Shown one piece after another: positions 5,343-49,910 of a stretch of DNA of 64,000 nt. A model generated the notes under the pieces. It did not search any database. It was not told where the DNA came from and saw only the letters and a program-made list of their open reading frames with translations. The stretch spans positions 868,001 through 932,000 of the forward strand of contig NZ_CM001368.1 of the NCBI RefSeq assembly GCF_000177215.2, given 5' to 3'. The DNA is from Solidesulfovibrio carbinoliphilus subsp. oakridgensis. Its GTDB lineage: Bacteria > Desulfobacterota > Desulfovibrionia > Desulfovibrionales > Desulfovibrionaceae. Position numbers and translations under genes: made by a program. The first letter of the stretch is position 1; every line of letters starts with the position of its first letter.

Positions 5343-5383
5343 GAACGCTCCGATCCGTGTTGCTGCGGTTGCGGCGAAGGATG

Positions 5384-6316
5384 TCACCCGGCGTCGGGAC
5401 CGTCCGGTCCGGTCGCAGCCGGCCCCTCGGCCAGGGCGGCGACATGCCGGCGTCGGAAGACTTCGGGCGAAAGCTCGGGCCAAAGCCAGAACGTTTCCCG
5501 GCCGGGCCCAAGGGCCAGGGGGGCCGCGTCCATGGCCTGGGGGAGCATTGCTTCGCCGGTGTAGACGGCATCGTAGCCCAGTGCGGCGGCTTCGGCCAGA
5601 GTGGTGCCCGAGGCGGCGTAAAACGGCTCGTTTTCGGCCGCATCGGCCTCGCCGTGGACGAAAAACGCCATGTCCGGGTGGGCAAAGGCCAGGGCCTCGC
5701 GGTCAAAGGTCGCGTCCGGGCCGGGAAAGAGGCCGACCCGCCCGGCCGTGTGCGCCGCGAGGACCCGGAGCCGGCCGACGGCCGGCGGCGGGGAAACGCC
5801 GTCCAGGCAGACCACCGCGCCGTGGCCTGTGGCCGCCAGGGCCGGCCACAGGCCGGCCAGGGAACGGCTCCCCAGGCGGCAGGCGGTCTCCACGCCGCAA
5901 AGTTCCAGGGCGACGAGGAGTTCCCTCGGCCAGCGGTCGCCGACACGCACGGCCGCGACCTGGGGCACCCGGGCGCACAGGGCCGGCACCACCGCCGCCG
6001 CCAGTCTCGCCGGCGAGGCGAAGGACCGGCCGCACAGGACAACCACGAAATCCAGGGGAACGTCCAGACGGGTCAGGCCAAGGTCATGGCCAAGGCCGGC
6101 GGACCAGCGGCGAAAGCGCGGCATGGGGCCGCCGCAGGCGGCATAGACGGCGGCCAGGCCGGTCTTTGCCAGGGAACGCTCCCGGTCCGAAACCCGGGCA
6201 TAGGCCGCGGCAAAGGCCGCGTCCGCCATCCTGCCCCGCTCCATGGCCTCGGGCCAGCCGCCGGCTGCGTCCGGAATGTCGTACTCCGTGTCCATGTTCA
6301 TGAATATCGGCGCCAT
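5384..6316 (-). CDS. Histidinol-dehydrogenase-like protein, probably non-catalytic
   Basis: 310 residues, about 120 shorter than HisD. Two stretches resemble the HisD core: [20 protein letters not shown] aligns by eye with the HisD segment following RPLxxVGLYVPGG, and the region around [20 protein letters not shown] aligns with HLAGVDEVYRIGGAQAxAAL. The HisD zinc-binding and catalytic His residues are not evident, so this reads as a degenerate or repurposed homologue. Starts at 6316 (MAPIF) or 6301 (MNMDT) are both possible. No histidine genes are nearby. Homology is inferred by eye only; the call could be simply hypothetical. Confidence 0.5.
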
Positions 6317-6320
6317 AAAC

Positions 6321-6350
6321 GCGAGCGGGGCGGACGGCCGCCCCGCTCGC
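6321..6350 (-). terminator. Stem-loop 3' of bamD
   Basis: Perfect 10-bp arms gcgagcgggg (6321-6330) and ccccgctcgc (6341-6350) with a 10-nt loop sit just 3' of the bamD stop in the minus direction. The run after the stem (GTTTAT) is only weakly U-rich, so termination may be partial and the gene beyond may be reached by read-through. Confidence 0.55.
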
Positions 6351-6359
6351 GCCTGGTCC

Positions 6360-7097
6360 TTACAGCCAGCGTTTGGCCCAGTTGCGCCAACTGCCTTCGA
6401 TCTTTCGCCGTTCGGTCTCGGTCAGGGTCTTCTGGTATTCGAGGTAGGACAGCTCGGCCCGCAGCTTCGAGTATTCGAGAACTTCCTCGAGGTCTTTGAA
6501 GTTCTCGGCCGTGTACATGTAGCGTTTCCAGGCCGCGCCGAACTGGTCGGTGCGCCAGTAGAAATCGGCCACAAAGAGTTCATGTTCGGCCAGCCGCTTG
6601 CGGCAGCGTCGGATGTACTCCGCCGCCTCCTTGCCGTAGTCGGTGTCCGGGAAGGTCTGCTCCAGGAGGTAGAAATACTGGAGGGCTTCCTGCAGGTTGC
6701 CTTGCGGCATGTCGATGGACTCGGAACGTTTGAAGTTGGACACGCCGATCTGGTAGAGGACGTAGGGAATTTCTTCGCTTCGCGGATGGACCGACTCGAA
6801 TTCCTTGTAGGTTTCCGCGGCCGGACCGTAATCCTCGGTCAGGAAGTAGGCGTCGGCCAGGGCGACCGTGCCCATCGGCGTGTAGGGGCTGAACGGATAG
6901 CGGTCCTTGAGCTTCATGAAGTAGCCGATGGCTCCGTAGTAGTCCTTTTCGGACATGGCCTGGCGACCGGATTCATACAGCTCCTGGGCGGTATCCTCGG
7001 GAGGAGGCAGAAAATAATAGTCCATGAGCCCGGCACAGCCGCCAAGGAAGAGCAGCAGGCAGGAGAGAGGCAGAAAACGGCGCAACATCGCATTCAT
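6360..7097 (-). CDS. bamD: Outer-membrane assembly lipoprotein BamD
   Basis: 245-residue lipoprotein of the BAM complex that folds beta-barrel proteins into the outer membrane. A short signal peptide ends in the lipobox LGGC (Cys21). The mature part consists of TPR-like repeats, with AQELYESGRQAMSEKDYYGA typical of the first BamD repeat and DRYPFSPYTPMGTVALADAY of the next. The C-terminal helix is rich in charged residues. Start MNAML was chosen because it places the signal peptide correctly; the in-frame extension upstream lacks a plausible start. A stem-loop follows the stop. Confidence 0.9.
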   Translation of the reverse strand: MNAMLRRFLPLSCLLLFLGGCAGLMDYYFLPPPEDTAQELYESGRQAMSEKDYYGAIGYFMKLKDRYPFSPYTPMGTVALADAYFLTEDYGPAAETYKEFESVHPRSEEIPYVLYQIGVSNFKRSESIDMPQGNLQEALQYFYLLEQTFPDTDYGKEAAEYIRRCRKRLAEHELFVADFYWRTDQFGAAWKRYMYTAENFKDLEEVLEYSKLRAELSYLEYQKTLTETERRKIEGSWRNWAKRWL

Positions 7098-7289
7098 GAT
7101 TGGTTCCCGGATATGGCCCGGTCCCGGCCGGGCGCCATGCGTCGGACGCGGCAACGCCCCAAGGCGGCAACCGGTCAGGCGTTTTGATGCGCGTCCTCTT
7201 ACCAGATGGGGCAAGGGCGCACAATGGAAAAAACCGAACCCGTCCGGCCGCCTTCGCCCCGTGGCCCGGCGGTCGATCGGGTCCGGCGG

Positions 7290-8219
7290 TCAGCCTTGCG
7301 AGAAGCGCGAACTGAGATAGGCGTAGGCGGCATGGGCGGCGCAGGCGCCGTCGCCGACAGCCGTGGTCACCTGCCGGCAGGATTTCGAACGGATATCCCC
7401 GGCCGCGAAGATGCCCTCGATGTTCGTGCGCATTTCCGCGTCGGTTTTGATAAATCCCTGTCCGTCCCGGTCCAGGCCCGCGGGGTAGAAGTCGCCCTGG
7501 GGCTCGAACCCGACAAAGACAAAGACGCCGTCCACGGGCAGGACATGGCAGTCGCCGCTTTTGACGTCGCGGACCTCGATCCCGGTGACGCTGTCCGCGC
7601 CCGTGATGGAGCACACCACGGTCGAACGCAGGATCTCGATGACCGGACTCACGGAGCACCGGTCCTGGTAGCATTTCTGCCCCCGGAAATCGTCGCGCCG
7701 GTGGATGAGGTAGAGCTTTTTGACCAGCCGGGACAGGTACAGGGATTCTTCCAGGGCGGCGTTGCCGCCGCCGATGACGGCCACGGTCTGGCCCCGGAAA
7801 AAGTTCCCGTCGCAAAGGGCGCAGTAGGACACGCCCTTGCCCACGAGCTCCTGCTCGCCGGGAATCCCCACCCGCTTGTACCGGGCGCCCGTGGCCAGGA
7901 CCACGGCCGTGGCCTCGACGGTCTCGCCCGCCACGTTGACGCGGTGGACGCCGTCTGCGGACTCGATGGCCCGCACCTCGTCGCCGATCCGGTCCACGGC
8001 GTAGTGTCCGAGGTGCGCGGCCATGAGGTCGGCCAGTTTCCAGCCCTCGATGCCTTCCGGGAAGCCGGGATAGTTCTCGATCAGATGCGTCATGAGCATC
8101 TGTCCGCCCGGAGACAGCTTTTCCACCAGGGCCACGGACACGTCGGACCGAGCCAGATAGAGAGCGGCCGTCATGCCGGCCGGGCCGCCCCCGATCACGA
8201 CGGCGTCATAGCGTTTCAT
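7290..8219 (-). CDS. trxB: Thioredoxin-disulfide reductase
   Basis: FAD-dependent NADPH:thioredoxin oxidoreductase of 309 residues. It shows the FAD motif GGGPAG (10-15), the redox-active CALC (133-136), the NADPH motif GGGNAA (150-155) and the C-terminal FAAGD FAD-binding motif. It lies 3 nt downstream of trxA, so the two form an operon and make the enzyme with its substrate. In sulfate reducers this pair supports cytoplasmic thiol balance and ribonucleotide reduction. Confidence 0.96.
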   Translation of the reverse strand: MKRYDAVVIGGGPAGMTAALYLARSDVSVALVEKLSPGGQMLMTHLIENYPGFPEGIEGWKLADLMAAHLGHYAVDRIGDEVRAIESADGVHRVNVAGETVEATAVVLATGARYKRVGIPGEQELVGKGVSYCALCDGNFFRGQTVAVIGGGNAALEESLYLSRLVKKLYLIHRRDDFRGQKCYQDRCSVSPVIEILRSTVVCSITGADSVTGIEVRDVKSGDCHVLPVDGVFVFVGFEPQGDFYPAGLDRDGQGFIKTDAEMRTNIEGIFAAGDIRSKSCRQVTTAVGDGACAAHAAYAYLSSRFSQG

Positions 8220-8694: not shown

Positions 8695-9784
8695 CCGATC
8701 CCCGGCCAAGAGGCGGGCCTGCCTGGTAATCCCACGGCACCTTGCGCCCGCGCGGCACGGCGTCGAGGGCCAGGTCGTGGGTCAGGCCGGCCCGGCCGAG
8801 AAGACAGCCGGCGGCCGCGATCATGGTGGCGTTGTCCGCGCAAAGGGCCGGCTCGGGCAGAAAGCACGGCAGGCCGCGACGCGCGCCCAGGGCTTCCAAC
8901 ATGGCCCGGATGCGGCTGTTGGCCGCCACCCCGCCGGCCGCCAGGATCGAGACCGCCGGCACGTCGAGGCCGTCCAGGGCCCGCTCCATCTTGACGCGGA
9001 GCGTGTCGGCCACGGCGAAATTGAGCGAGGAACAAACCCGGCGCAGATCCAGGGGCCAGGCTGCGGCATCGACGGGCCCGTCCGGCGCCGGCATGACGGC
9101 CAGACGGAGGCCGGGGTGTCTGGCGACATGGGTGGCGACGGCGGTTTTAAGGCCGCTGAAGCTGAAATCGAGGTGCGTGTTTTCCAGATTGGGCCGGGGA
9201 AAAAGGGCGCGGTCCGGCTCGATCCCCGCCCCGAGCCGGTCGACGAAGACCCCGCCGGGATAGGGCAGGTTCAGCGACTTGGCCGCCTTGTCAAAGGCCT
9301 CGCCCGCGGCGTCGTCCACGGTGCGGCCAAGGACCGTCAGGTCCAGGGGGGACCGCAGGAGCACGATCTGGGTGTGTCCGCCCGAAACCAGGAGCCCGAG
9401 CGCCGGATAGGCCACCTCGCGGCCAAGCGTCGCGGCCAAGAGATGGGCGTGGAGGTGGTCCACGCCGATGAGAGGCTTGCCGGCGGCCAGGGCCAAGCCC
9501 TTGGCCACGGCCAGGCCGATGAGAAGACTGCCGAGGAGTCCCGGCCCCCGGGCCACGGCCACGGCGTCCACGTCGGCCAGGCCAAGGCCCGCCTCCCGAA
9601 AAAGCGCGTCCAGAAGCGGCCCCATGCGGCGCAAATGCTCCCGCGAGGCCAATTCCGGCACCACCCCGCCGAAAAGCGCGTGCAGCTTGATCTGGGAAGC
9701 CAGTTTTTCAAGGAGGGGACGGCCGTCGTCGCAAAGGGCCACGGCCGTCTCGTCGCAGGAGGTCTCGATGCCAAGGCAGAGCAT
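8669..9784 (-). CDS. tsaD: tRNA N6-adenosine threonylcarbamoyltransferase TsaD
   Basis: Transfers threonylcarbamoyl from TC-AMP to A37 of ANN-decoding tRNAs, with TsaB and TsaE. The 371-residue product has the ASKHA-fold start LGIETSCDETA, the metal-binding HLHAH (110-114), LLVSGGHTQ and the nucleotide-binding AAGGVAANSRIR. It is about 25 residues longer than the usual 340 because of a low-complexity C-terminal tail. It follows fbp by 6 nt, and its 3' end contains the trxA promoter. Confidence 0.96.
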   Translation of the reverse strand: MLCLGIETSCDETAVALCDDGRPLLEKLASQIKLHALFGGVVPELASREHLRRMGPLLDALFREAGLGLADVDAVAVARGPGLLGSLLIGLAVAKGLALAAGKPLIGVDHLHAHLLAATLGREVAYPALGLLVSGGHTQIVLLRSPLDLTVLGRTVDDAAGEAFDKAAKSLNLPYPGGVFVDRLGAGIEPDRALFPRPNLENTHLDFSFSGLKTAVATHVARHPGLRLAVMPAPDGPVDAAAWPLDLRRVCSSLNFAVADTLRVKMERALDGLDVPAVSILAAGGVAANSRIRAMLEALGARRGLPCFLPEPALCADNATMIAAAGCLLGRAGLTHDLALDAVPRGRKVPWDYQAGPPLGRGSVDRRSKPQ

Positions 9785-9790
9785 CGGGCC

Positions 9791-10804
9791 TCAGGACTGG
9801 CGGGCCTTGGCGTAGATTTCCTCCACCATGGCCACGTCGTTTTTGCTGCCGATGAAAAGCGGCACGCGCTGATGGAGCTCTTCCGGCTCGATGGACAGGA
9901 TGTCGCGCACACCGTCGCTTCCGGCGCCGCCCGCCTGGGCCGCGACAAAGGACAGAGGCGAGGCCTCGCACAGCAGCCGCAACTTGCCCTTGGGCTTTTT
10001 GGGGTCCCGGTGGTCGGCGGGATAGAGGAAAATGCCGCCGTAAAGGAGGTTGCGGTGGAAATCCGCCACCAGCGACCCGATGTAGCGGCCGCCGTAGGGC
10101 TGGCCGCGCCTGTTGTCCGACCCCTTGAAGTACCGGACGATCTCCCGGGTCGGCTCGTCCCAGTAGTCCCAGTAGGCCTCGTTGACCGAATAGATCCGGC
10201 CGGTTTCCGGGGTCTTGATGTTGGGGTGGGAGAGCAGGAATTCGCCCACGCTCGGGTCGAGGGTGAAGCCGTGGACGCCCCGGCCCGTGGTGTACACCAT
10301 CATGGTGGAGGTGCCGTACAGGAAATAGCCGGCCGCCACCTGCTCGGAGCCGCGCTGGAGCAGATCGCACAGCTTGTCGCCGGTGCAGCCTTCCTTGGTG
10401 CGGTAGATGGAGAAGATGGTGCCCACGTTGACGTTGGCGTCGATGTTCGACGACCCGTCGAGGGGGTCGAAGATAAGAAAATAGTCGCCCTTGGGGAACT
10501 GGTCCGGAATGAGGACCAGATCGGCGTTTTCCTCGGAGGCGATGGCGCAAAGGACGCCGGCCCGTTCCATGCGGTGGATGAGGACCATGTTGGCATAGTC
10601 GTCGAGCTTTTGGACCTGCTCGCCCTGGACGTTGATTTCGCCGGTAAATCCGAGGACATCGACCAGCCCGGCCTTGTTGACTTCCCGGGAGATGATCTTG
10701 GCCGCCAGGATGAGTTCGTTCAGAAGCCGGGTGAACCGGCCCGTGGCCATAGGCGATTCTTTTTGGTGCAAAAGCAGATGCTCGATAACGGTGACTTGGG
10801 GCAT
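9791..10804 (-). CDS. fbp: Class I fructose-1,6-bisphosphatase
   Basis: Hydrolyses fructose-1,6-bisphosphate to fructose-6-phosphate, the committed step of gluconeogenesis, needed for growth on small organic acids. The 337-residue product has the metal-binding signature DPLDGSSN (113-120), SEEN (90-93) for the first metal site and [21 protein letters not shown] near residue 240. Start MPQVTVIEH matches class I length; in-frame codons upstream are low-complexity. It is separated from the upstream lipoprotein gene by a strong terminator. Confidence 0.96.
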
Positions 10805-10936
10805 GTGTCGTTCCTCCCGCCGTCGATGGCGGTCCGGGCGATGGGTGGCCGCGCCGGACAGCGTTTTCATGCGGCTGTCGGTCCTTTTACAATGGCCGGG
10901 AACTTCCCACAAGATTTTCCAGGGGTTGGCGCGGAC

Positions 10937-10968
10937 AAAAAAAGCCGGCGGCCCAGCCGCCGGCTTTT
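10937..10968 (-). terminator. Rho-independent terminator after the lipoprotein gene
   Basis: 10-bp stem agccggcggc/gccgccggct (10943-10952 and 10956-10965) with a 3-nt loop, followed on the minus strand by seven T residues (10943-10937). It ends transcription of the lipoprotein gene ahead of fbp. A shorter T run on the plus side means it may work weakly in both directions. Confidence 0.85.
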
Positions 10969-10983
10969 CGGGCAGTCGGGAAT

Positions 10984-11841
10984 CTAGGGATTGGGCGTAG
11001 CGGCCGGGGACACGTCCGCGGGGGACGGCTCCGGGGTCGGGACCGGCGCGGCCTTCGGCGGTTCGGGCTTTTTGGCCCGGGCCTCGCGCACGTCGGTCAG
11101 GTAGACCAGTTCGAGCTGGCCGAGGTAGCGGGCCTGCCAGACGTACTGGCCGCCGCCGGAGGCCACCTCGCCCTGGACTCCGCCCTTGAGCATCTCGGCC
11201 CACTTGAGGCCGGAGAGGGCCTCGCCCTGCCCGCTTCCGCCCGGCCAGACCAGGCCGTCGGTGGAAAGGACCACCAGGGCGTCGGGCTCCGGCGAGAACC
11301 GGACCAGGTTTCTGGGATCGAAGAAGGCGACCACCAGGCCGGCCCACTCGTTCTCCTTGAAATAGGGCGCCGCGACCAGGACCACGGTGCCGAATTCGTC
11401 GGTCTTCACCTGGGCGCCCATCTTGCGGGTCTTGTAGCGGTCGGCGAATTCGAGCAGGCCGCTGAAATCGAGCGGCCGCAGGGAGGCGGTCGGCGCCTGG
11501 GACACCACCGCGCCGGAGGTGTCGATGACGGCCACGCCGGAAAGCCAGTCGTGGCTGGAGAGCAGCTGTTGGGCCCAGTCGCTTTCCGGCGGCGTGTCCT
11601 GGCTGCCAATGACGCGCAAAAGGCCCATGAGGCGCTCGTCAACCGGCATGAGGAGCGAGGCCAGCCGTTGCAGACCCTTGTCGCTTATGCCCTGTTCGCT
11701 GAAATCGATGGTCGGGTCGGTATTGATGTAGGACCGGTACAGCTTTTTGGTGTCGCGCCAGGACGTCTTCATCGTGCCGCAGCCGCTTAAAATGACAAGG
11801 CAACCAAGGGCCGCAAGGGCCGCGCTCACAGTGCGTTTCAA
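10984..11841 (-). CDS. Lipoprotein of unknown function with a possible sensor-like domain
   Basis: 285 residues. The signal peptide ends in a lipobox LSGC (Cys21), so this is an anchored periplasmic lipoprotein. The central part ([20 protein letters not shown], then [20 protein letters not shown]) has the alternating strands of a Cache/PAS-like domain, though this is inference from pattern. The last 30 residues are Pro/Ala-rich and look disordered. It lies downstream of the TPR gene and is closed by a strong terminator. It is not a family I can name. Confidence 0.7.
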
Positions 11842-11906
11842 GACCGTTTCCTCTCGATGTTCCAGATTATGGGCTCGGGCCGCCAGTGGCGGTATCGATC
11901 GCGGAA

Positions 11907-12905
11907 TCAGGCCCCGGCCCGGCTTTCCAGGCGTCCGGCCAACGCTTCCAGGAGGCTGACGAGTTTGGCCGCACCCTTGGGTTTCGGGGCAACGGCCGGG
12001 GGGGCGTCGCCTTCTTCAAGGTCGGATTCCGGCTGTCCGGCGGACAGGTCCGCGGCCGGGGCCCCGCCCGGCGACAGGGAGGCGAGCATGCGCTCCAATT
12101 CCTGGCGCTCGGGACCGGGCGCGGTGGCGGCCAAAAGCTCGGTATAGATGTCGCGGGCTGCGTCCGTCTCGCCCTGCCCGGCCAGGAGCGCGGCCATGGT
12201 CTTGGTGCGGACTCCGGCTTCCCGGGGCTTGGCCGGCCGGGGCCGGGCCTTTTCCCGGCTCTCCTCGGGCACGTCCAGAAGGTCGGCCAGTTCCAGAACC
12301 TCCCGTGCGCCGCGCAAGGGCGGCGCTTCCCCGGCCTCCCGGCGGTCCGGAGCCGGATCCTGGGGCCTGGGGACGGGGGGCGCAAGGGGGGCCGGAGCGA
12401 CCGGGGCCGTCTCGACCTTGGGCGTAGCCTGGTTCGCGTCGTCAGGCGGCGAGGCCGACGTCGCGGCAGCCTTGCCGGCAAGGTCCGGCGTGCCGGGAGC
12501 CCCCTGGCGAAGGCTGCGCAGCCCCCGCTCCATGACGTCGGCCCAGGTCAGGGTTTCGTTCTGGAAATAGTTGGCCAGAAAAAGCATGGCCAGGGCCGGG
12601 TCCGTGGACCGGGACGCGGCCTCCCGGGACCACAGGAGCCAGACCGAGGGATAGCGGGCGAGCATGGTGCCGACGTCGCCGAAGACCGCGTCCGCCTCCC
12701 CGGCCCGCCCGAGGCGGGTCAGCAGTTCGATCAGGAGGAACTTGGCTTCCAGGTGGTCGGGATGAAAGGCGATGCCCCGGGCGAGAACCGTGGCGGCCTC
12801 GTCGTGGCGGCCTTCCTCATGAAGCTGCCTGGCCAGGGGGAAGAAAACCTTGGAATTGGGCTCAATCTCCAGGACTTCCCGGTAGATATCGATTTTACTG
12901 ACCAT
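11907..12905 (-). CDS. Tetratricopeptide repeat protein with a disordered middle
   Basis: 332 residues. Residues 1-100 contain TPR-like helix pairs (YREVLEIEPNSKVFFPLARQ; AATVLARGIAFHPDHLEAKF), followed by a long Pro/Ala-rich segment and then another helical repeat (MAALLAGQGETDAARDIYTE). There is no signal peptide, so it is cytoplasmic. The start overlaps the stop of the FtsB-like gene by 11 nt, implying co-translation. It may scaffold a division or envelope complex, but this is inferred from context only. Confidence 0.75.
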   Translation of the reverse strand: MVSKIDIYREVLEIEPNSKVFFPLARQLHEEGRHDEAATVLARGIAFHPDHLEAKFLLIELLTRLGRAGEADAVFGDVGTMLARYPSVWLLWSREAASRSTDPALAMLFLANYFQNETLTWADVMERGLRSLRQGAPGTPDLAGKAAATSASPPDDANQATPKVETAPVAPAPLAPPVPRPQDPAPDRREAGEAPPLRGAREVLELADLLDVPEESREKARPRPAKPREAGVRTKTMAALLAGQGETDAARDIYTELLAATAPGPERQELERMLASLSPGGAPAADLSAGQPESDLEEGDAPPAVAPKPKGAAKLVSLLEALAGRLESRAGA

Positions 12906-41797: not shown

Positions 41798-43597
41798 TCA
41801 GGCCCGCCCGCCCGGCAGGGCCGTCTGGGCGGCATGGGCCGATTCGCCGCGGAGTTCCTCGATCAATCCTTTAAGGACCTGCGCCTGTTCGGCCAGGTCG
41901 GCCACGGCCGTGGCCGAGCGCTCCATGGCTTGCGCCGTCTCGCCGGACACCCGGCTGACGTCGGCGATGGAAGCCTCGATGGCTTCGCTGGCCGCGGACT
42001 GCTCCTCCGAGGCGGCGGCGATGGAGCGGACCTGGTCGGAAGCCGACTCCACCAGGGAGACGATGGCGGTCAGGGCCTGGCCGGACTGGTCGGCCAGGGA
42101 CGTGGCTGACTCGATGACGCCGACGGCCTCGCGCACGCCGCCGACACTCTTGTGGGTGCCGGCCTGGACGTCGCGGATGGCCTTGCCCACTTCGGCCGTG
42201 GCGGTCATGGTTTTCTCGGCCAGCTTTCGGACCTCGTCGGCCACCACGGCGAAGCCCCGCCCGGCCTCGCCGGCCCGGGCGGCCTCGATGGCGGCATTTA
42301 AGGCCAGCAGGTTGGTCTGGTCCGCAATGTCGGAAATGACGCCAAGGACCCGGCCGATGCCTTCGGCCTGGGTACCGAGTTCGGCCATGTCCTGGCTGAG
42401 GACGAGCGCCTTGTCCCTGGCCGCGCTGATGCCGGCCACGGCCCGGCGCACCACTTCCGAGCCCGAGGCCGCCTGTTCCCGGGCCTTTGCCGCCGTATCC
42501 GAAGCCGTGGAAGCGTTTTGGGCCACGTCGAGGACGGTTGCGCTCATCTCGCCCATGGAGGCCACGGTTTCCGAGAGCCGGGCCGACTGTTCGGCCGCGC
42601 CCCGGGTGGCCTGCTCCGTGCGCTCGGCCAGCTCCGCCGAGGCCTCGGTCACGACCTCGACCACGGCCGTCAGCCGTTCGGCCGCGTGGAGCATGCCCTC
42701 GTGGCGGGCCATCTCGGCGGCCAGCCGGTGGGCCTCGGCCTCGGCCGTGGCCGCGCAGGCCTTTTCGGCCTGGGCGGCGGCCTCCTCGCCCTTTCGCAGA
42801 GCGGCGGCGATGTTTTCCTTGAGCGAATCAAGCATCCGGCGCAGGGCGTCGGCCAGCTCCCCGAGCTCGTCCCGGCCCTTGACCGCAAGCATTGCGTCGA
42901 GGTCGCCGCCGGCCACGGACCGGGCAAAAGCCACGCTTTTTTTAAGCGGCCCGACGATCGACAGTGTAATGATGGTGCCGAGGGCGATGGAAACGGCCAG
43001 ACACAAGACCGCGGCCACGACCAGGGTCAGCCCCCGCCGAGCCGCCTGCTCCCTGGCCGACCGGGCCAGGACATCGGCCTGGATCCGGCTGCGTTCGAGC
43101 AGGCTGCCAAGGGCCGTGCTGGCCTTTCGCAGGGAAAGCATGGAGGTGCCGATGGACAGGGTCAGGGCGTTGCTGCGCTTGTTCTGGGAAACAAACTCCA
43201 CCACCTTGGCGTTGGTGGCCCGCCATTCGGCCAGGGCATCGTTGAACGTCTTCCAGGCAGCCACATCCTCCTCGTCGCGCCAAAGCCCCTCCACCATGGC
43301 CCGGCCCTGGTCCACGAGGCCAAGCCCCGTCTTCAGGTTTTCCCGTTGCCGGTCGAATTCCTTGGAATTGGCCAGCTCCGGCACCAGGATGGTCCGCTCG
43401 GCCGACTGGGCGGCCAGGAGCCCTTCCTTCACCAGGCCAAGCCCGGCCACGCGGGGCAGGGCCGACCCGGCCACCTCGGACAGGGCCTTGCCGGTATCCT
43501 GCAGGCTCCGATAGCCGAGGATGCCGATAACGACGGTGATGAGCGACGTGACAACCACCGAGGCGAACAACTTTACGCCGACCTTGAAATTGCCCAC
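41798..43597 (-). CDS. Methyl-accepting chemotaxis protein
   Basis: 599 residues. TM1 is about 7-29 and TM2 about 190-215. Between them lies a periplasmic four-helix-type sensor ([20 protein letters not shown]), which suits small-molecule sensing by 4HB domains. A HAMP region follows, then a coiled-coil signalling domain with the CheA/CheW hairpin core [21 protein letters not shown] and two methylation-like helices. The ligand is unknown. It is monocistronic. Confidence 0.92.
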
Positions 43598-43697: not shown

Positions 43698-44513
43698 TCA
43701 AATTCCGTCGTTCGCGTCCGAAGCCTCTTCCAGGGGCGGTTCGGGCATGGATTCCCCGCGTTGGCGTGATTCCAGATAGGCCATGAAGGCCTTGCCCTGA
43801 GGGAAGGCGGGATTGAGGCGCAGGGCGTGGGTGAGCATCATGCGGGAACTGGCCAGGCGCCCTTTTTCATAGAGGGTCCTGGCCATGTTGTAGAGCAAGT
43901 GTTCGTCGGTGCGGCACAGGCGATAGGCCCGGCTGTAGTATTGCATGGCTTCGTCGTACATGCCCAGTTTTCGCATCTTGATGCCGAAGTCGTTGAAGAG
44001 ATGCTTGTGCTCCACGGTGAAGGCCGCTTCGATCCGCATGATCTTCTGGAACACGATGTCCGCGTTCTGCTTTTCCTGGCGTTCGAGATACGTCAGTCCG
44101 AGTCCGAACGTGGCCTTGACGTGGTCCGCGTCCAGACGCAGCACGTTTTGGTATTCGAATTCCGCGGAGAAAAGCTCCTGGCGTTGCCGATGGCGGTCGG
44201 CCGTTTCCACGGCGTCCTCCAGCCGGCGCATGACAGGCACGACCTTGTTGATATAGATGGAGGGTTCGGGCAGATACTCGGCCAGAAGCCGCTCCTTGGG
44301 AATGATCCGCCTGGTCCCTGTCGGAATGAAGTTGCGGCTCAGGCGCCAGAGGGCCATCCGGCCGTCTCCCTGCTCCTCGGCATAGACGAACAGACGCTGG
44401 GTGATGCGGCCGAGGCTCCGCTGGCCGAGGAACTGCTGGGCGTCGGTGGAAAAGACCCCCTTGACGGGTTTGGCCCCGGGAACGGGTATGGTATGGTTCG
44501 GGGGTTGCGGCAT
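43698..44513 (-). CDS. Tetratricopeptide repeat protein, cytoplasmic
   Basis: About 271 residues with several TPR helix pairs ([60 protein letters not shown]). There is no signal peptide if the start is MPQPPNHT, and the ribosome site is weak, so the start is uncertain. It diverges from the HD-GYP gene. TPR proteins of this kind are seen next to diguanylate or phosphodiesterase genes, but no specific role can be given. Confidence 0.75.
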
Positions 44514-44599
44514 GGCAAAGGGGTTGGGGGTGTCGTCCCTGATACTCCCGGGGAGGAGGTTTCGGCAAGCCATGCCCGGCCTGCCCGGGGCGGCGCGAG

Positions 44600-44629
44600 T
44601 TGACAGGAATTTTTCCTGCCGCATATACC
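44600..44629 (+). promoter_or_regulatory. Predicted promoter of the HD-GYP / cyclase operon
   Basis: TTGACA (44600-44605) and TATACC (44624-44629) are 18 bp apart (or ATATAC at 17), with a small palindrome aggaatttttcct inside the spacer. About 85 nt before the HD-GYP ATG. Confidence 0.6.
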
Positions 44630-44714
44630 CGGGGATGCCGAGGCGACAAACCCATCGGCCATACCGCCCGGTGGGGCCCAAACGGCGGCATCCACGGTCC
44701 CAGGATCATGCCTC

Positions 44715-46001
44715 ATGCAAATAGACGAATACCCTATCTTGGTGGAACAACTGTGCCCCGGACTTTTCATCCGCATTGACGAGCCGGGCCTGCCCCATCC
44801 CTTTCCCGCCAAAGGGTTTCTGCTCAAAACCGATGCCGATGTGGCCAAGGTGACGGCCCTTGGCCTGGCCCACGTCCTTTGCGTGCCGGACAAGTCCGAC
44901 CGCCTGCCCGTTTCCCTGGAAGAAATCGACGGCCTGGCCGGCAAACGCCAGAAGGGGCCGTGGTCCACGGCCCGCACGCCGGTTTCGGCCGAACTGTCGA
45001 GCCTCAAGCGGGAGACCATCGAGCGCAACAAGGACCGGCTGGAGCGGTTCGCGGCTTGCGAACGCCGCTATGAAAAGGCCATGAGCCAGGTGGTGGAGGC
45101 CTTAAAGCGGGTCTCCTCGCCCAACGCCGAAGTCTTGGAGGCGGCCGGCGAGGTGGTCGGCCCCATGGCCGAGACCTTCCTGTCCGACCTCGACGTCCTT
45201 ATAAACGTCATGACCGCCAAGATGCGCGACGAGGCCAAGCATTACCACGCCCTGAACGTGGCCGTGCTCTCCATGATGCTGGCCAAGGAAATGGGCCTTG
45301 GCAAAAAGGACATCGAGGAGGTCGGCATGGGTTCGCTTTTCCACGATATCGGCAAGGGACGGGTCCCGATCCAGCGGTTCACCAAGGGCAACATGGTGAC
45401 CATGAACAAGGTGCTCAAGGAATACTACATGGAGCACCCGAAGATCGGAGCCAAGATGCTGGCCGCCGTCCCGGGGTTTCCGCCGGCCGCCCAGCTTCTG
45501 GTCCTGCAGCACCACGAGCAGATGGACGGCTCGGGCTTTCCCATGCGCGTGAGCGGCGAGGCCATCACTCTCGGCGGCCGGATCGCGGCCGTGGCCAATG
45601 TCTACGACCGGTTTTGCAACACCAAGGACGGCAGCGAGAGCCGCACCCCGCACGAGGCCATGAAGGCCCTGTACAAGCGCCGGGGCCTGCTTGACCCCAA
45701 GGCCGTCACCATGTTCATCCGCAAGCTCGGGGTCTACCCGCCCGGCTCCCTGGTCGAGCTGTCAAACGGCATGCAGGGCATGGTGGTTTCGGCCAACCTG
45801 CGCGATTCTATGCGGCCAAGCGTCAAGGTCTACCACCCGGACATTCCCAAACGCGAGGCCCTCATTATCGACCTGTGCATCGAAACGGAGTTGAACGTGG
45901 CCAAGGCCCTCAAAACAACGGACCTTCCGCCAGACGTTCTTCAGTACCTGAACCCGGGCAAGCAGGTTTCCTACTATGTCGACGCCGCGCCCCGTCCGTA
46001 G
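44715..46001 (+). CDS. HD-GYP domain protein, probable c-di-GMP phosphodiesterase
   Basis: 428 residues. A DUF3391-like N-terminal domain (1-110) precedes an HD-GYP domain: H178 (KHYHALNVAV), H210-D211 (SLFHDIGKG), H241 (EHPKIGAKML), H266-H267-E268 (LQHHEQMDGSGFP). The GYP is GFP here, an allowed variant. HD-GYP proteins hydrolyse c-di-GMP, usually with a di- or tri-iron site. The adenylate cyclase fusion gene starts 30 nt downstream, so the two form one operon. Confidence 0.88.
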   Translation: MQIDEYPILVEQLCPGLFIRIDEPGLPHPFPAKGFLLKTDADVAKVTALGLAHVLCVPDKSDRLPVSLEEIDGLAGKRQKGPWSTARTPVSAELSSLKRETIERNKDRLERFAACERRYEKAMSQVVEALKRVSSPNAEVLEAAGEVVGPMAETFLSDLDVLINVMTAKMRDEAKHYHALNVAVLSMMLAKEMGLGKKDIEEVGMGSLFHDIGKGRVPIQRFTKGNMVTMNKVLKEYYMEHPKIGAKMLAAVPGFPPAAQLLVLQHHEQMDGSGFPMRVSGEAITLGGRIAAVANVYDRFCNTKDGSESRTPHEAMKALYKRRGLLDPKAVTMFIRKLGVYPPGSLVELSNGMQGMVVSANLRDSMRPSVKVYHPDIPKREALIIDLCIETELNVAKALKTTDLPPDVLQYLNPGKQVSYYVDAAPRP

Positions 46002-46031: not shown

Positions 46032-49000
46032 GTGACCCGTCCGGGCTCGCCGGCCCGGGCCATCATGCGGACCCTGCGCACCGGGCTGTCTCAGCCGCCG
46101 GGCTCGGACCTGTCTCCGCTCGTGCCCCTGGCCAGGCAGGCCCTGGCCTTTATCGACCGTGGCGCCGTGGACGATCCGGCCACGGCCGGCGAGGCGTCGG
46201 AGCTGGCCTTTCTGCTGGCCGCCCTGCTCGAAGCCGGAGACGAAGGCTTTGCCCGTCAGGCCTTTGGTCTGCTTTTCCGCCTGGGCGTGGAAGGCGAGGT
46301 CCTGGCCGTCATCCATCTGGAAAAGCTGTCCGAGGACCAGGCCGTCGCCATCCTCTCCGGCCTTGGCGACGAGGAAAAACTCCTTTTCGTCAACGCCTTT
46401 TTCCGCCGGGAACGGCCGGCGCGGCCGAAGACCGCCGCCTTCGGCCTCGGGGTCCTTTCCGACGTGGTGGAGCGGACCCCGGACGAACTCCTGATCCTTC
46501 TGGACCTCCTGGCCAACCGCCACGAGTATCCGGCCCTGCCCGTGCGAAACGGGCTCGTGCGCGGCCGGCTCGGCATGTGGCTGCACCGGCTACTCCGGAT
46601 GGACCTGTCGGCCGAGCAGACCCGGTACATGGCCCGCGTGGTCGGACGGCTGCGGGAGCCGGTCCTGGTGGAGGGACTGGTGGAGCGGCTCGGCAACCTG
46701 GACGAAATTTCCGCCGAAATGGTCTGCCGGGCCCTGGCCGAGACGCCGGGCATCGACCCGGCCGTGGCGGCCGGGCCTGTGGCGGCCCTTCTGGCGACAC
46801 CGGAACCGTCCCTGGCCGGCGCGGCCCTGACCGCCCTGGCCCGGTGCGATCCGTCCCTGGCGGCCGAGGCCGCTGCCGGACTTCTGGCCGGCGATCCCGG
46901 GCGGACGGCCGAACTGGCCCCGCTTCTGGCCGGCCTGCCCCTGGCCGCCTTCGGCCAGGCCCTTCGCGGCCTGCCCCCGCAACTGCGGAAAAAGACCCTG
47001 GGGGCCGTCTATGCCGTCCTGGCCGCGGCCCAGCCCCAGGCCATGGCCGGTGCCGCCCGGGCGGTGGCACGGGCAGGCGTGGCCCCGGCTCAGCTCACCG
47101 AGTCCCTGCTCGCGGATCTGGCCGTCAGGGCCAAGGCCGCCTCGCGCCCCTTCCCGCCCCGCCCGGCCCTGCCCGGTCCGGCCGCACCCAGGGAAGATCC
47201 CAAGGGGCTCTGGAAACGCGTCAAATCCCTGGTGCCGACGCCCGGAAGCGGCGGCGACCAAAAGGCCGAGGCCCTTCGCCGGCAGTTGGCCGCCGGGGAG
47301 GAAATCCACAAGCGACAGATCTTATGGACGCCGCTTGACGGCGAGGCCATCACGGATGCGGTCTTTTCGAAATGCGTGTTCCGAGCCGTCGGCCTCAGCC
47401 AGTCCACACTTGCCGACGTCACCTTTACGGACTGCCAGTTTTCGGACGTCAATTTCGAGCAGTCTCGGCTGACCCGCGTCACCTTCCAGGGCTGCCGGTT
47501 CGCCAATTGCCGGTTTTCCCGGATCGTGCTCGACGGGGTGGGGCTGGCCGACTGCGAACTGCGGCTGTGCGGCTTCGAATCCGCCACCGGGAGCGACGTG
47601 GCCTTTACCTCGGTCGATGTGGCGGAATGCGATTTTTTCAGCGCCGTTCTGACCGGCCTGTCCCTCTGTCGGTGCCGGTTCCGGGCGGTCAGTCTGGTGC
47701 GGGCCGTATTGCACGGATTCTCCAGCCGGGGCGTGCTTTTTTCCGACTGCCTCTTCGAGATGGCCACCTTTCCCCGGGCCAGGTTCTCGGGCCTTCGGAC
47801 CGAGGGCTGCTATTTCGCCGGCTCGCGGTTTTCCGGCGCGACCGAGGAGCCGGACATTCTCGGGGCCATGGCCAAGGACGATGCCCTGGCCATGGCCGAG
47901 GCCGCCCCGGACATCCCCCTGCCGGCCGCCCTGGCCGAAGGGCCGGGGTTGCGGCTGGTGGCCGCCTGCTGCGATGCCCTGCTTTTTTCCCGCGACATCC
48001 GCCGCCGCCGGCTGGCGCTTTTGGCCAACAACAAGCGCCGGCTGGCCTGGGCCAGACGGCGGCTTGGCGAGGCGGGCGCGGCCTTTCTCGACATGCTGCC
48101 GGGGCTGGTCGGCCTGGGGCTCGTGCGGGACGGGTCGGGCACGCGTCCGGCTCCTGGGGCACGTATCGCCGGATTCGCCCCGGACCTGCCCACCCTGCGG
48201 CATCTGGTGCGCCATTTCGGCTGCCCGGCCGCGGCATTCCCGGAGGTCCCGGCAAACGCCCTGGCCGTGGAGGCGGTCTACACCATCGGCAGCGTCGGCA
48301 CCGTGGCCCAGACTTCCGATTCGGATCTCGATGTCTGGATCTGTCTCAAGGACGGCGAGGCCGCGCACCCGGATCTGCCGGCCTTTACGGACAAACTTGA
48401 AACCATAAGCCGGTTCGCCGAAACGGAAGCGGGACTGGAAATCCATTTCTTCTGCATGACGGTCCAGGACGTGCGGGACAACGTGTTCGGCTATTCCGAG
48501 GACGAGGGCTACGGCTCGGCCCAGGGTTGCCTGCTGAAGGAGGAATTTTACCGCACGGCGCTGGTGGTGGCCGGCAGGAAGCCGGCCTGGTGGTGCGTTC
48601 CGGCCCGGATCGGGCAGGAAGCGTACGCCAAGGCCCTCTCGGGCATCAGACGGGCCGAACCGGAGGTGGCCGCCGACTGCCTGGATTTCGGACCGGTGAC
48701 GGCCATCGCCGGCGACGAGTACTTCGGGGCGTCGTTGTGGATGATCGTCAAGTCCCTGACCAGCCCGTTCAAGTCCATCATCAAGTTCGGGCTACTCGAA
48801 AAATACGCCGAACACCCGGGCGAGCCGGAGCTTTTGTGCGACACGCTCAAGGACTACGTGTTTGCCAACCAGGGCGGCCTTTGGCGGTGCGATCCCTATG
48901 CGCTGTTATTCCGCGAGGTCAGCCGCCACTACCAGGAGCGCAAGCAATCCGGCGCCGTGGAGCTCCTGCGCCAGGCCTTTTTGCAGAAGACGGGTTTTGA

Positions 49001-49910
49001 TCCGTGCGAGGAATACGCCACCCGGTCCGGGGAAACCATCCTCGACCACTTCTTCCCCTACGCGCCGCCCGCGGCCGGGGCCTGCCCGCCTCCGCCCCGG
49101 CGGGACAGCCAGGCCGACGAGGACGGCTTTGCCCAGGCCGTGGCCCTTGGCGATGCCATCACCGCCTATTTCCTGCGGGCCTACGAGCGGCTCAAGGCCC
49201 GCAGCCAGGAACTGGCCAGCGGCGGCGGGCTGACCGAACGCGACCAGACCATGCTGTCGCGGCGCATTGCCGCGAGCTTCGGCCGGCGGGTCGGAAAAAT
49301 CATGCGCATGCCGTTTATCCGGCCGGGCCGGGACCTGTTCGCCTCCCTGGAAATCGCTTGCGAGGAGATTTCACCCCGGGAAAAGGGCTTCGTCATCCGG
49401 GCCGAGAGCGCCGGTCCGGACCGAAAGGCCAGAAAGCGCGAAACCGTGCGCCAGGAGGGTTCGCTTCCCCGTCTGGCCGGCTGGCTCACGGCCAACGAAC
49501 TCTACCGGCCCGGGCTGCATTTGCAGGCCGCCGCCCTGCCGGCGCCCCTGACCCTGCCCGATGTGGCCGGCGTCCTTGGAGCCGTGCACAACGTCTTTCC
49601 GGTCCGGGAGACCTTTGCCCCGGCGCTTTCGCTGGGGCTTTTGCCGGAACGCGTGACCGCCGCCCTGTTTGTCGTCAACCTGCTCGCCCCCCGGGAGGAA
49701 CGACGGACCGTGAGCCTGGACGTGCTCTACGCCACGACCTGGGGCGAACTGTTCCACCTGGAGCGCACGGCCGGGCTCGACGTCTTCGACGCCTCGCCGT
49801 CCCTGTTCCTGTCCGAAAGCCTCGGCCTGGCCCTGGCCCCGGACCTGCGGCTGGAAGTGTACGCTCCGGCCCGTTCCCAGTGCCAGGCCGGGCGACAGGC
49901 TCGGCGGTAG
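46032..49910 (+). CDS. HEAT-like / pentapeptide-repeat / class I adenylate cyclase fusion
   Basis: 1292 residues. Residues 1-400 are helical, Ala/Leu-rich repeats of HEAT type (ALAETPGIDPAVAAGPVAAL and similar). About 430-610 is a run of pentapeptide-like repeats (TFTDCQFSDVNFEQSRLTRV). From about 640 on is a class I adenylate cyclase: the catalytic signature GSVGTVAQTSDSDLDVW near 752, then EEFYRTALVVAGRK and GDEYFGASLWMIVKSL with CDTLKDYV, as in enterobacterial CyaA. Both Asp of SDLD are present, so it should make cAMP. GTG 46032 is taken as start; an ATG at 46065 is possible. The fusion is unusual. Confidence 0.85.
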   Translation: MTRPGSPARAIMRTLRTGLSQPPGSDLSPLVPLARQALAFIDRGAVDDPATAGEASELAFLLAALLEAGDEGFARQAFGLLFRLGVEGEVLAVIHLEKLSEDQAVAILSGLGDEEKLLFVNAFFRRERPARPKTAAFGLGVLSDVVERTPDELLILLDLLANRHEYPALPVRNGLVRGRLGMWLHRLLRMDLSAEQTRYMARVVGRLREPVLVEGLVERLGNLDEISAEMVCRALAETPGIDPAVAAGPVAALLATPEPSLAGAALTALARCDPSLAAEAAAGLLAGDPGRTAELAPLLAGLPLAAFGQALRGLPPQLRKKTLGAVYAVLAAAQPQAMAGAARAVARAGVAPAQLTESLLADLAVRAKAASRPFPPRPALPGPAAPREDPKGLWKRVKSLVPTPGSGGDQKAEALRRQLAAGEEIHKRQILWTPLDGEAITDAVFSKCVFRAVGLSQSTLADVTFTDCQFSDVNFEQSRLTRVTFQGCRFANCRFSRIVLDGVGLADCELRLCGFESATGSDVAFTSVDVAECDFFSAVLTGLSLCRCRFRAVSLVRAVLHGFSSRGVLFSDCLFEMATFPRARFSGLRTEGCYFAGSRFSGATEEPDILGAMAKDDALAMAEAAPDIPLPAALAEGPGLRLVAACCDALLFSRDIRRRRLALLANNKRRLAWARRRLGEAGAAFLDMLPGLVGLGLVRDGSGTRPAPGARIAGFAPDLPTLRHLVRHFGCPAAAFPEVPANALAVEAVYTIGSVGTVAQTSDSDLDVWICLKDGEAAHPDLPAFTDKLETISRFAETEAGLEIHFFCMTVQDVRDNVFGYSEDEGYGSAQGCLLKEEFYRTALVVAGRKPAWWCVPARIGQEAYAKALSGIRRAEPEVAADCLDFGPVTAIAGDEYFGASLWMIVKSLTSPFKSIIKFGLLEKYAEHPGEPELLCDTLKDYVFANQGGLWRCDPYALLFREVSRHYQERKQSGAVELLRQAFLQKTGFDPCEEYATRSGETILDHFFPYAPPAAGACPPPPRRDSQADEDGFAQAVALGDAITAYFLRAYERLKARSQELASGGGLTERDQTMLSRRIAASFGRRVGKIMRMPFIRPGRDLFASLEIACEEISPREKGFVIRAESAGPDRKARKRETVRQEGSLPRLAGWLTANELYRPGLHLQAAALPAPLTLPDVAGVLGAVHNVFPVRETFAPALSLGLLPERVTAALFVVNLLAPREERRTVSLDVLYATTWGELFHLERTAGLDVFDASPSLFLSESLGLALAPDLRLEVYAPARSQCQAGRQARR

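Follow-up and report, generated by a model that had tools for sequence, protein, structure and literature searches.

The window, a 64,000-nucleotide stretch of the genome of the sulfate reducer Solidesulfovibrio carbinoliphilus subsp. oakridgensis, contains an open reading frame at 46032..49910 that the first-pass annotation had read as repeats followed by a class I adenylate cyclase, an enzyme class whose textbook type is that of Escherichia coli. This frame was borne out on reanalysis, and the gene directly upstream on the same strand encodes an HD-GYP phosphodiesterase-like protein. The features are as follows.

44715..46001, + strand: HD-GYP phosphodiesterase-like gene with DUF3391, 30 bp before the cyclase start (Pfam, clade linkage, motifs)
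46032..49910, + strand: whole cyclase gene, GTG start, 1292 aa plus stop
46065, + strand: possible alternative start, an in-frame ATG at codon 12 (sequence)
46050..47141, + strand: alpha-solenoid, HEAT-like, residues ~7-370 (AlphaFold2; HEAT_2 in some relatives; armadillo-type Foldseek matches)
47142..47300, + strand: low-confidence linker, residues 371-423, containing two short helices (AlphaFold2 pLDDT ~50-60 over 371-410)
47301..47843, + strand: pentapeptide-repeat right-handed beta-helix, residues ~424-604 (Pfam, period test, AlphaFold2, matches to AlbG/Qnr/MfpA/HetL)
47940..48113, + strand: long predicted helix from the beta-helix side into the cyclase core, residues 637-694 (DSSP of the AlphaFold2 model, residues 213-270 in model numbering)
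48015..48593, + strand: PF12633 Adenyl_cycl_N, residues 662-854 (Pfam, E 1e-38)
48288..48338, + strand: catalytic signature GSVGTVAQTSDSDLDVW, residues 753-769, including D765 and D767 (alignment with E. coli D114 and D116)
48675..49685, + strand: PF01295 Adenylate_cycl, residues 882-1218, profile positions 1-335 of 601 (Pfam, E 2.8e-25)
49686..49907, + strand: C-terminal end of the core, with TTWGELFH at 1235-1242 (alignments; tail lengths)

Overall, the 1292-residue protein consists of an alpha-solenoid, then a pentapeptide beta-helix, then a class I adenylate cyclase core. No earlier description of such a repeat-armed class I cyclase was found in the literature searched (openly licensed papers). 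Hydropathy analysis revealed no membrane anchor in the cyclase, and a membrane-anchored enzyme was rejected as no KD19 window exceeded 1.55, the highest value observed.

Two repeat domains ahead of the core

AlphaFold2 was run on two separate parts of the cyclase chain, yielding one model that contains residues 7-370 and 424-600 (pLDDT 90.5, pTM 0.89) and another that spans the beta-helix, the long helix and the cyclase core (pLDDT 86.8, pTM 0.81). Repeats are predicted in the first 600 residues, one of the points on which the first-pass annotation had staked its reading. Its description of the first ~400 residues as HEAT-like held in part. Residues 7-370 are indeed predicted to form an all-helical solenoid, with 22 helices and pLDDT mostly ~90 or more, but HEAT/ARM Pfam models gave no match to the window protein at E<=1. 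We nonetheless use the label because of the predicted fold, the relatives and the Foldseek matches to designed armadillo proteins. Among relatives, HEAT_2 was detected at E<=0.01 in 4 of 39 members of set A4 and 3 of 28 of set A3, and a HEAT model exceeded its curated cut-off in one protein, L184 (32.5 versus 27.7 bits). The likeness to HEAT/armadillo solenoids is accordingly one of fold and of family, whereas the window protein itself lacks any HEAT model match.

The pentapeptide-like stretch was confirmed. Specifically, Pfam Pentapeptide_4 matches residues 479-549 (E 1.7e-16), and Pentapeptide (E 1.2e-10) and Pentapeptide_3 (E 1.7e-09) match as well, all above curated cut-offs. The central positions of the five-residue period are hydrophobic in 33 of 36 cases, a count that none of 20,000 shuffles reached, and a chance origin of the period is therefore rejected. 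Residues 424-600 are predicted as a regular beta-helix, and pentapeptide and other beta-helix folds were among the best 50 of 379 Foldseek matches to the core-containing model. Target-normalised TM-scores of the pentapeptide matches are modest (~0.25-0.66). AlbG, Qnr and MfpA are among the closest solved folds, and HetL was also matched. The window protein has the five-residue period and right-handed beta-helix fold of these proteins, but its beta-helix is internal to an enzyme and is not acidic in composition.

The proximity of AlbG, Qnr and MfpA among solved folds raises the alternative of a beta-helix that mimics DNA and binds topoisomerases, so that cAMP output would be linked to gyrase or topoisomerase IV. 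In keeping with this, the 12 Desulfobacterales-type loci with HPr (described below) also have a parE-type gene beyond the cyclase start, within 150 bp in 11 of them and at 1.4 kb in L133. A subunit A gene follows the parE-type gene in L136 (by Pfam) and L147 (by eye), and in the f11 locus L208 both a subunit A gene and a match resembling ParE lie upstream. This neighbourhood was noticed post hoc, however, and may be plain synteny, and no parE-like match lies within 9 kb of the window gene. The NCBIfam Qnr and MfpA models scored 19.6-37 bits against the window protein, below cut-offs of 240-500. Moreover, in contrast to the acidic DNA mimicry of Qnr/MfpA-type inhibitors, the window beta-helix shows no net acidity by composition (19 D/E versus 19 K/R in 181 residues). 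As it is charge-neutral, we keep topoisomerase mimicry as a low-ranking and highly improbable rival.

Cyclase core and missing C-terminal tail

With respect to catalysis, PF12633 and PF01295 match the window protein at 133.8 and 89.4 bits, against a cut-off of 27. The signature and both catalytic Asp residues noted originally are in place: D765 and D767 align with D114 and D116 of E. coli CyaA, and D954 aligns with E. coli D300, all three of which are catalytic in that enzyme. The GSxGx..SDxDxW active-site motif and the later Asp (D954) are both present. Judged by Pfam and this motif, the window protein is assigned to the class I adenylate cyclases, and it would be expected to make cAMP. The SDxD aspartates have not been lost in homologues; in an alignment of 144 rows with 3 gaps at each Asp position, D765 is kept in 138 of 141 letters and D767 in 139. 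The exceptions are degenerate paralogues in L067 and L069 (+ strand), plus one L091 ORF that is out of frame there. These paralogues likewise have pentapeptide repeats followed by PF12633 and PF01295, but their catalytic motif is altered (GQFGSLAQPGGSIARLL, with SNVDYW replacing SDxDxW).

The cyclase domain had been described as full, which is true of the portion aligning to E. coli CyaA residues 1 to ~640; in the same alignment, E. coli residues ~640-848 have no counterpart. The window chain ends close to where the E. coli tail would start, with 47 residues after residue 1245 as opposed to 204 in E. coli. Comparison with E. coli K-12 CyaA also upholds the placement of two repeat domains before the catalytic domain. 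The two proteins share the PF12633+PF01295 core, with D114, D116 and D300 matched, but the E. coli enzyme has its catalytic domain first and a regulatory tail to 848, whereas the window core starts near residue 660, after ~640 extra N-terminal residues, and the tail region is absent.

Nine NCBIfam class I models match the window protein from residue 656 on only, the best being NF006981 (638 positions; residues 656-1241 against positions 20-612, E 5e-93). The window protein passes none of these equivalogs (best 312.7 bits versus a cut-off of 802), and E. coli passes three. NF006981, a model of short class I cyclases, is also the best for the short Nitrospinota protein L142 (543.4 bits); such cyclases differ from the window protein in having no N-terminal arm, and neither protein reaches the cut-off. 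A sequence search of solved structures returned no relative of the core, as all 51 matches were best at profile positions 3-250, which cover the beta-helix and the helix after it.

Distribution and descent of the long forms

Beyond what had been annotated, the armed architecture is conserved among relatives and the C-terminal tail is missing. The survey of other genomes for the same domain order, proposed originally, found long forms to be widespread in the order and present also in Desulfobacterales, whose relatives show the domain order of the window protein. PF01295 was detected in 104 of 297 surveyed genomes of the order, and in 100 of these it lies within an open frame of at least 1000 aa; in the other four, all of them drafts of 220-470 contigs, the frames are 449-939 aa long. 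The phylum sample gave PF01295 in 50 of 395 genomes. An open frame is no gene model, and in that sample some of 1074-1271 aa are misleading on length; L185, L189 and L190, on reading, either have the catalytic motif early or are stretched by unrelated upstream codons.

The relatives compared further are 80 of 285, a sample biased to long forms because it was chosen by similarity to the window. A usable core was present in 139 rows, comprising 91 distinct long forms, 29 short forms and 19 in between, of which 17 extend past the locus end and the other two, L091 and L133, look broken. With cut or broken rows set aside, N-terminal length is bimodal. In the long forms, 634-1024 residues precede the core and 0-80 follow it, compared with post-core lengths of 204 in E. 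coli and 327-330 in the tailed L150 and L169. None of the relatives surveyed combines an arm and a tail. Short forms with neither module exist, so that a direct swap of tail for arm is rejected; tail loss was not tied to arm gain, and the arm was perhaps added to a tail-less core.

That the layout is an artefact, either a misassembly or a fused pseudogene, has nothing in its favour for the window gene, although breaks or truncations occur in some relatives (L068, L091, L133). Misassembly is rejected on the strength of the 91 distinct long sequences that share one domain order and the SDxD Asp residues intact in nearly all aligned rows, and the chance of an artefact of either kind is negligible.

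Pentapeptide models match 38 of 39 members of set A4 and 21 of 28 of set A3. The latter figure equals the number of long forms in A3, window included, the remaining seven being five short forms, one tailed form and E. coli; this result is one of counts only. The arm is less conserved than the core (mean commonest-residue fraction 0.38 versus 0.49-0.56), and its best conserved positions are mainly Leu, Gly, Pro and Ala, plus Phe and Cys of the beta-helix. Such poor conservation would suit a scaffold no less than a sensor. This residue profile, together with the lack of an identified conserved ligand pocket, would also suit repeats that support structure or stability and take no part in signalling. 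We consider that role improbable, as short forms with the same core do without the arm, so that it is generally dispensable to the core, and ~600 residues held at near-constant length in two orders suggest a selected function.

Two core trees were built. The first omitted the 19 in-between rows, together with 6 short rows that were cut, broken or doubtful (leaving 114), and then near-copies at >=80% identity (94 left); the second used 62 chosen rows, among which L184 brought part of its arm into the alignment. All long forms fall on one side of one branch, with a single change of label in the second tree. The branch has SH-aLRT values of 77 in the first tree and 91 in the second, and is not starred. 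As far as core sequences can indicate, the tree is compatible with a single origin of long forms. Comparison of Desulfovibrionales and Desulfobacterales by hhalign gave probabilities of 89.6 over 247 columns for the N-terminal arms and 99.5 for the beta-helices, which is weak evidence for common descent because repeats align with repeats.

Neighbouring genes and a candidate regulatory role for the arm

Neighbours were counted by named-query searches, since clustering of all ORFs was confounded by antisense ORFs in high-GC loci, and L069 was counted once for its two cyclases. All 19 rows of the window's starred clade have an HD-GYP gene upstream of the cyclase and on its strand, as against 0 of 40 other Desulfovibrionales long rows, making it a probable operon partner of the window cyclase. 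The window HD-GYP gene encodes HDIGK and HHEQMDGSGFP motifs, with F in place of Y; among the 26 HD-GYP frames scanned, window included, 25 have HD[IVLM]GK and 18 the HHE motif as written. HPr is found 3' of the cyclase in 12 of 22 Desulfobacterales-type loci. These HPr-linked loci form no clean clade on the first tree, where L126, L140 and L148 sit among them and have no HPr match. Depending on the group, the neighbours are HD-GYP, HD_3/YfbR-like, phosphoglucomutase, HPr-EI or none of those sought, and no single input is readable from context because of these differences. A YdjM-like neighbour common to the window and L208 is not claimed (Pfam 8e-08 in L208, 0.05 in the window); BLASTP between the two candidates gave no significant match.

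Building from these observations, our leading reading, to which we assign a probability of roughly 45%, is of a cytosolic class I adenylate cyclase with regulatory input at its N-terminus. The nucleotidyltransferase-type core (~660-1240) would make cAMP, and the solenoid (7-370) would offer a surface recognising a partner protein or ligand. Pentapeptide beta-helices are rigid, and the one at 424-604 could keep the solenoid at a set distance, with the long helix (637-694) that runs into the core relaying the signal to the active site. In favour of this reading, three proteins among the cNMP-binding matches carry a GE...R-S/T-A motif like that of the cNMP-binding cassette; a fourth match to this motif, in L174, was left out as probably read in the wrong frame. 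We infer that the arm regulates the cyclase; the originally suggested role of the beta-helix as scaffold or sensor gate on putative cAMP output is plausible. In the window's clade, the HD-GYP protein, whose gene is probably co-transcribed with that of the cyclase, may coordinate the cue with c-di-GMP turnover.

The conserved armed layout points to a new way of regulating class I cyclases. Most PF01295 proteins of the order have a large conserved arm, a place where sensory input could enter. Short, tailed and armed variants of the same core occur naturally in the family, and class I cyclase regulation is therefore directly testable in it. A broader reading, which we regard as rather unlikely, is that a whole class I cyclase lineage gained, in a single event, a HEAT-pentapeptide arm doing the job of the enteric tail, and that groups then wired the arm to proteins of different adjacent genes. 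The partner would be an HD-GYP c-di-GMP phosphodiesterase in the window's clade, while Desulfobacula-type bacteria would use the PTS proteins HPr and Enzyme I. If so, the window's clade would have one operon controlling two second messengers, and the PTS-cAMP link of Desulfobacula-type bacteria would be separate from the enteric EIIA-Glc route. For the window cyclase, EIIA-Glc control is rejected, as no EIIA-Glc-type domain (PF00358) was found in the genome, with the E. coli control positive.

A somewhat doubtful but substantial alternative to N-terminal regulation is a localisation scaffold, in which solenoid and beta-helix only tether an unregulated cyclase to some complex or structure of the cell and create a local cAMP pool with no gating of the active site. 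The rigid beta-helix, the nearly fixed length of the arm and its faster divergence relative to the core all suit such a tether, and tail-less short forms show that the core is able to exist without either regulatory module. Nonetheless, the predicted helix, which starts shortly behind the beta-helix and enters the core, is as expected of a transmitter, and regulatory-type genes (HD-GYP, HPr-EI) are linked in some groups. Also on the side of the tether, the same genome has three class III cyclase and eight cNMP-binding matches, so that separate pools could be useful.

The repeat arm and the cyclase core

The open reading frame at 46032-49910 (+) encodes, as the first-pass annotation described, 1292 residues from a GTG start. 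Its matches over the curated Pfam cut-offs are as follows.

Between residues 458 and 549 (+): best stretches of three pentapeptide models
Residues 662-854 (+): PF12633
Residues 882-1218 (+): PF01295

The pentapeptide stretch claimed at first reading is borne out by these models, by a period test and by structure prediction. Specifically, 33 of the 36 five-residue units across residues 424-604 have a hydrophobic central position. No shuffle out of 20,000 gave as many, and three other stretches of equal length gave 15-17. An AlphaFold2 model of the N-terminal part, built on 39 aligned sequences (pLDDT 90.5, pTM 0.89), predicts 22 helices in the solenoid region (7-370), a weak linker up to about residue 407 and a regular β-helix from residue 424 to about 600. 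A separate model of residues 425-1292 (pLDDT 86.8, pTM 0.81) reproduces the β-helix, whose blocks of ten score pLDDT 93-98, and places a single long helix (chain residues 637-694) entering the cyclase core. Repeat folds are hence predicted, in these two parts, over the first ~600 residues. Among the Foldseek matches of the β-helix are AlbG, HetL, Qnr and MfpA; those of the solenoid include designed armadillo proteins. As to the term "HEAT-like", the window protein has no HEAT-like Pfam match at E ≤ 1, but HEAT_2 matches 4 of 39 and 3 of 28 members of two alignments of relatives and exceeds its cut-off in relative L184. We consider the label fair because of the predicted helices, the armadillo matches and HEAT_2 in relatives. 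The β-helix (window 47301-47843) has strongly conserved cysteines: among 39 sequences, C488 and C493 are kept in 90%, and C468 and C508 in 72-74%.

With respect to the core, described earlier as a full class I cyclase domain, residues 1 to about 640 of E. coli K-12 CyaA are indeed matched, whereas its residues from about 640 to 848 are without a counterpart in the window protein. Both catalytic aspartates are present as stated: D765 and D767 align with D114 and D116, and D954 with D300, which we take to be the catalytic residues of E. coli CyaA. The SDLD aspartates are kept nearly throughout the homologues (D765 in 138 and D767 in 139 of 141 letters, 144 aligned rows), the exceptions being paralogue L067 (both), the + paralogue at L069 (D765 only) and one ORF at L091, out of frame there. 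Nine NCBIfam class I models match the window protein, none of them before residue 656; the highest-scoring, a short model of 638 positions, gives 312.7 bits, where its cut-off is 802.

At locus L069, two armed paralogues adjoin divergently.

3799-7938 (+): SNVDYW instead of SDxDxW
8718-12668 (-): motif kept

Judged by its motif, the + copy looks catalytically dead beside a motif-intact partner. A second degenerate paralogue (L067:4820-8794, -) carries GQFGSLAQPGGSIARLL, and its genome (G201) has three further PF01295 matches in long frames. The armed cyclase at L068:6479-10262, readable in several overlapping frames, would be either a damaged copy or the product of a sequencing error.

Distribution and origin of the arm

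The nearest named relatives are from Solidesulfovibrio (74% identity). PF01295 occurs in 104 of 297 Desulfovibrionales genomes (25 of 55 genera), and by a count from the survey table the open frame that holds it is 1000 aa or longer in 100 of these 104; in a phylum sample it occurs in 50 of 395 genomes, with many frames of 630-690 aa. A scan of named genomes returned 285 relatives, and among the best 80, which were examined, long forms came from Desulfovibrionales and Desulfobacterales (e.g. Desulfobacula, Desulfotignum and Desulfospira). Pentapeptide models match 38 of 39 members of the Desulfovibrionales-type alignment and 21 of 28 in the alignment holding Desulfobacterales forms, 21 being also its number of long forms (the window protein plus 20). 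The same domain order, for which a survey had been proposed, recurs in both orders as long, pentapeptide-bearing forms.

Among 139 proteins with a usable core, at least 634 residues precede it in 91 and fewer than 150 in 29; 17 of the 19 in between are cut by the locus end. The core is followed by 0-80 residues in long forms, 40-62 in most short forms (one has 100 and one, at a contig end, 0), 204 in E. coli and 327-330 in relatives L150 and L169. Arm and tail were never seen together on one protein among those compared. On a mixture-model tree of 62 cores the long label requires one change (SH-aLRT 91) and all three classes together two, the least possible; a larger tree (LG, 94 rows) gives the same picture for the long forms, with support 77. 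Because short forms with neither arm nor tail exist, a core already lacking the tail may have gained the arm, with no exchange of one for the other.

A possible input arm

Taking together the domains, their conservation and their arrangement, each observed or predicted, it is simplest to regard the protein as a cytosolic enzyme that would make cAMP and take its input through an arm at the N-terminus; its regulation, partner and activity we infer. The solenoid would serve recognition, the β-helix would be a rigid spacer and the long helix would act as transmitter. The main rival holds that the arm is a tether that does not gate the cyclase. Profile searches of the window genome gave one PF01295 match, three class III cyclase matches, eight cNMP-binding matches and no EIIA-Glc match.

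Among the openly licensed papers searched, none combined "class I adenylate cyclase" with Desulfovibrio, and none mentioned adenylate cyclase together with both HEAT repeat and pentapeptide repeat; the only one in which adenylate cyclase occurs with class I and pentapeptide repeat was a meningococcal vaccine review. A 2005 census and a 2008 PTS paper regard class I enzymes as narrowly distributed (PMC1183210, PMC2405797). A 2026 paper puts forward that a Vibrio CyaA senses light, perhaps with the help of an N-terminal extension, which is a recent hint of N-terminal input into class I enzymes (PMC13079933).

Neighboring genes

Upstream of the window cyclase, 30 bp from its start, is an HD-GYP gene that also carries DUF3391. 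The window cyclase sits in a clade of 19 rows (starred in the 94-row tree), all 19 of which have HD-GYP upstream on the same strand, as do 0 of 40 other Desulfovibrionales long rows. The distance is within about 300 bp in most of the clade; at L044 it is 865 bp, counted from the end of the matched stretch, and at L038, L058 and L083 the cyclase open frame overlaps the match. At L048, L102 and L105 a weaker HD-GYP match lies 2-4 kb downstream of the cyclase, in the opposite orientation. Just upstream of the window pair, and divergent from it, are two further genes.

43698-44681 (-): TPR protein
41798-43597 (-): methyl-accepting chemotaxis protein

The TPR gene is retained in close relatives.

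Of the 22 Desulfobacterales-type loci scanned, 12 have HPr after the armed cyclase, in the same orientation.

HPr-linked loci: L121, L122, L124, L125, L127, L128, L130, L133, L135, L136, L137, L147

The gap is 90-170 bp in four loci and 870-1010 bp in eight, with an opposite-strand gene intervening at L136. Enzyme I and SmpB come next in 11 of the 12 (at L122 the contig ends), and a parE-type gene on the opposite strand flanks the cyclase on its other side in the same 12. In other groups a phosphoglucomutase or HD_3/YfbR-like gene adjoins. Such diverse neighbors suggest either an arm that can work with various partners or a gene context of little informative value. At L208:489-8977, from the distant family f11, a row on one strand comprises a gene for subunit A of gyrase/topoisomerase IV, a ParE-like match, YdjM and an armed cyclase, the cyclase again adjoining topoisomerase genes.
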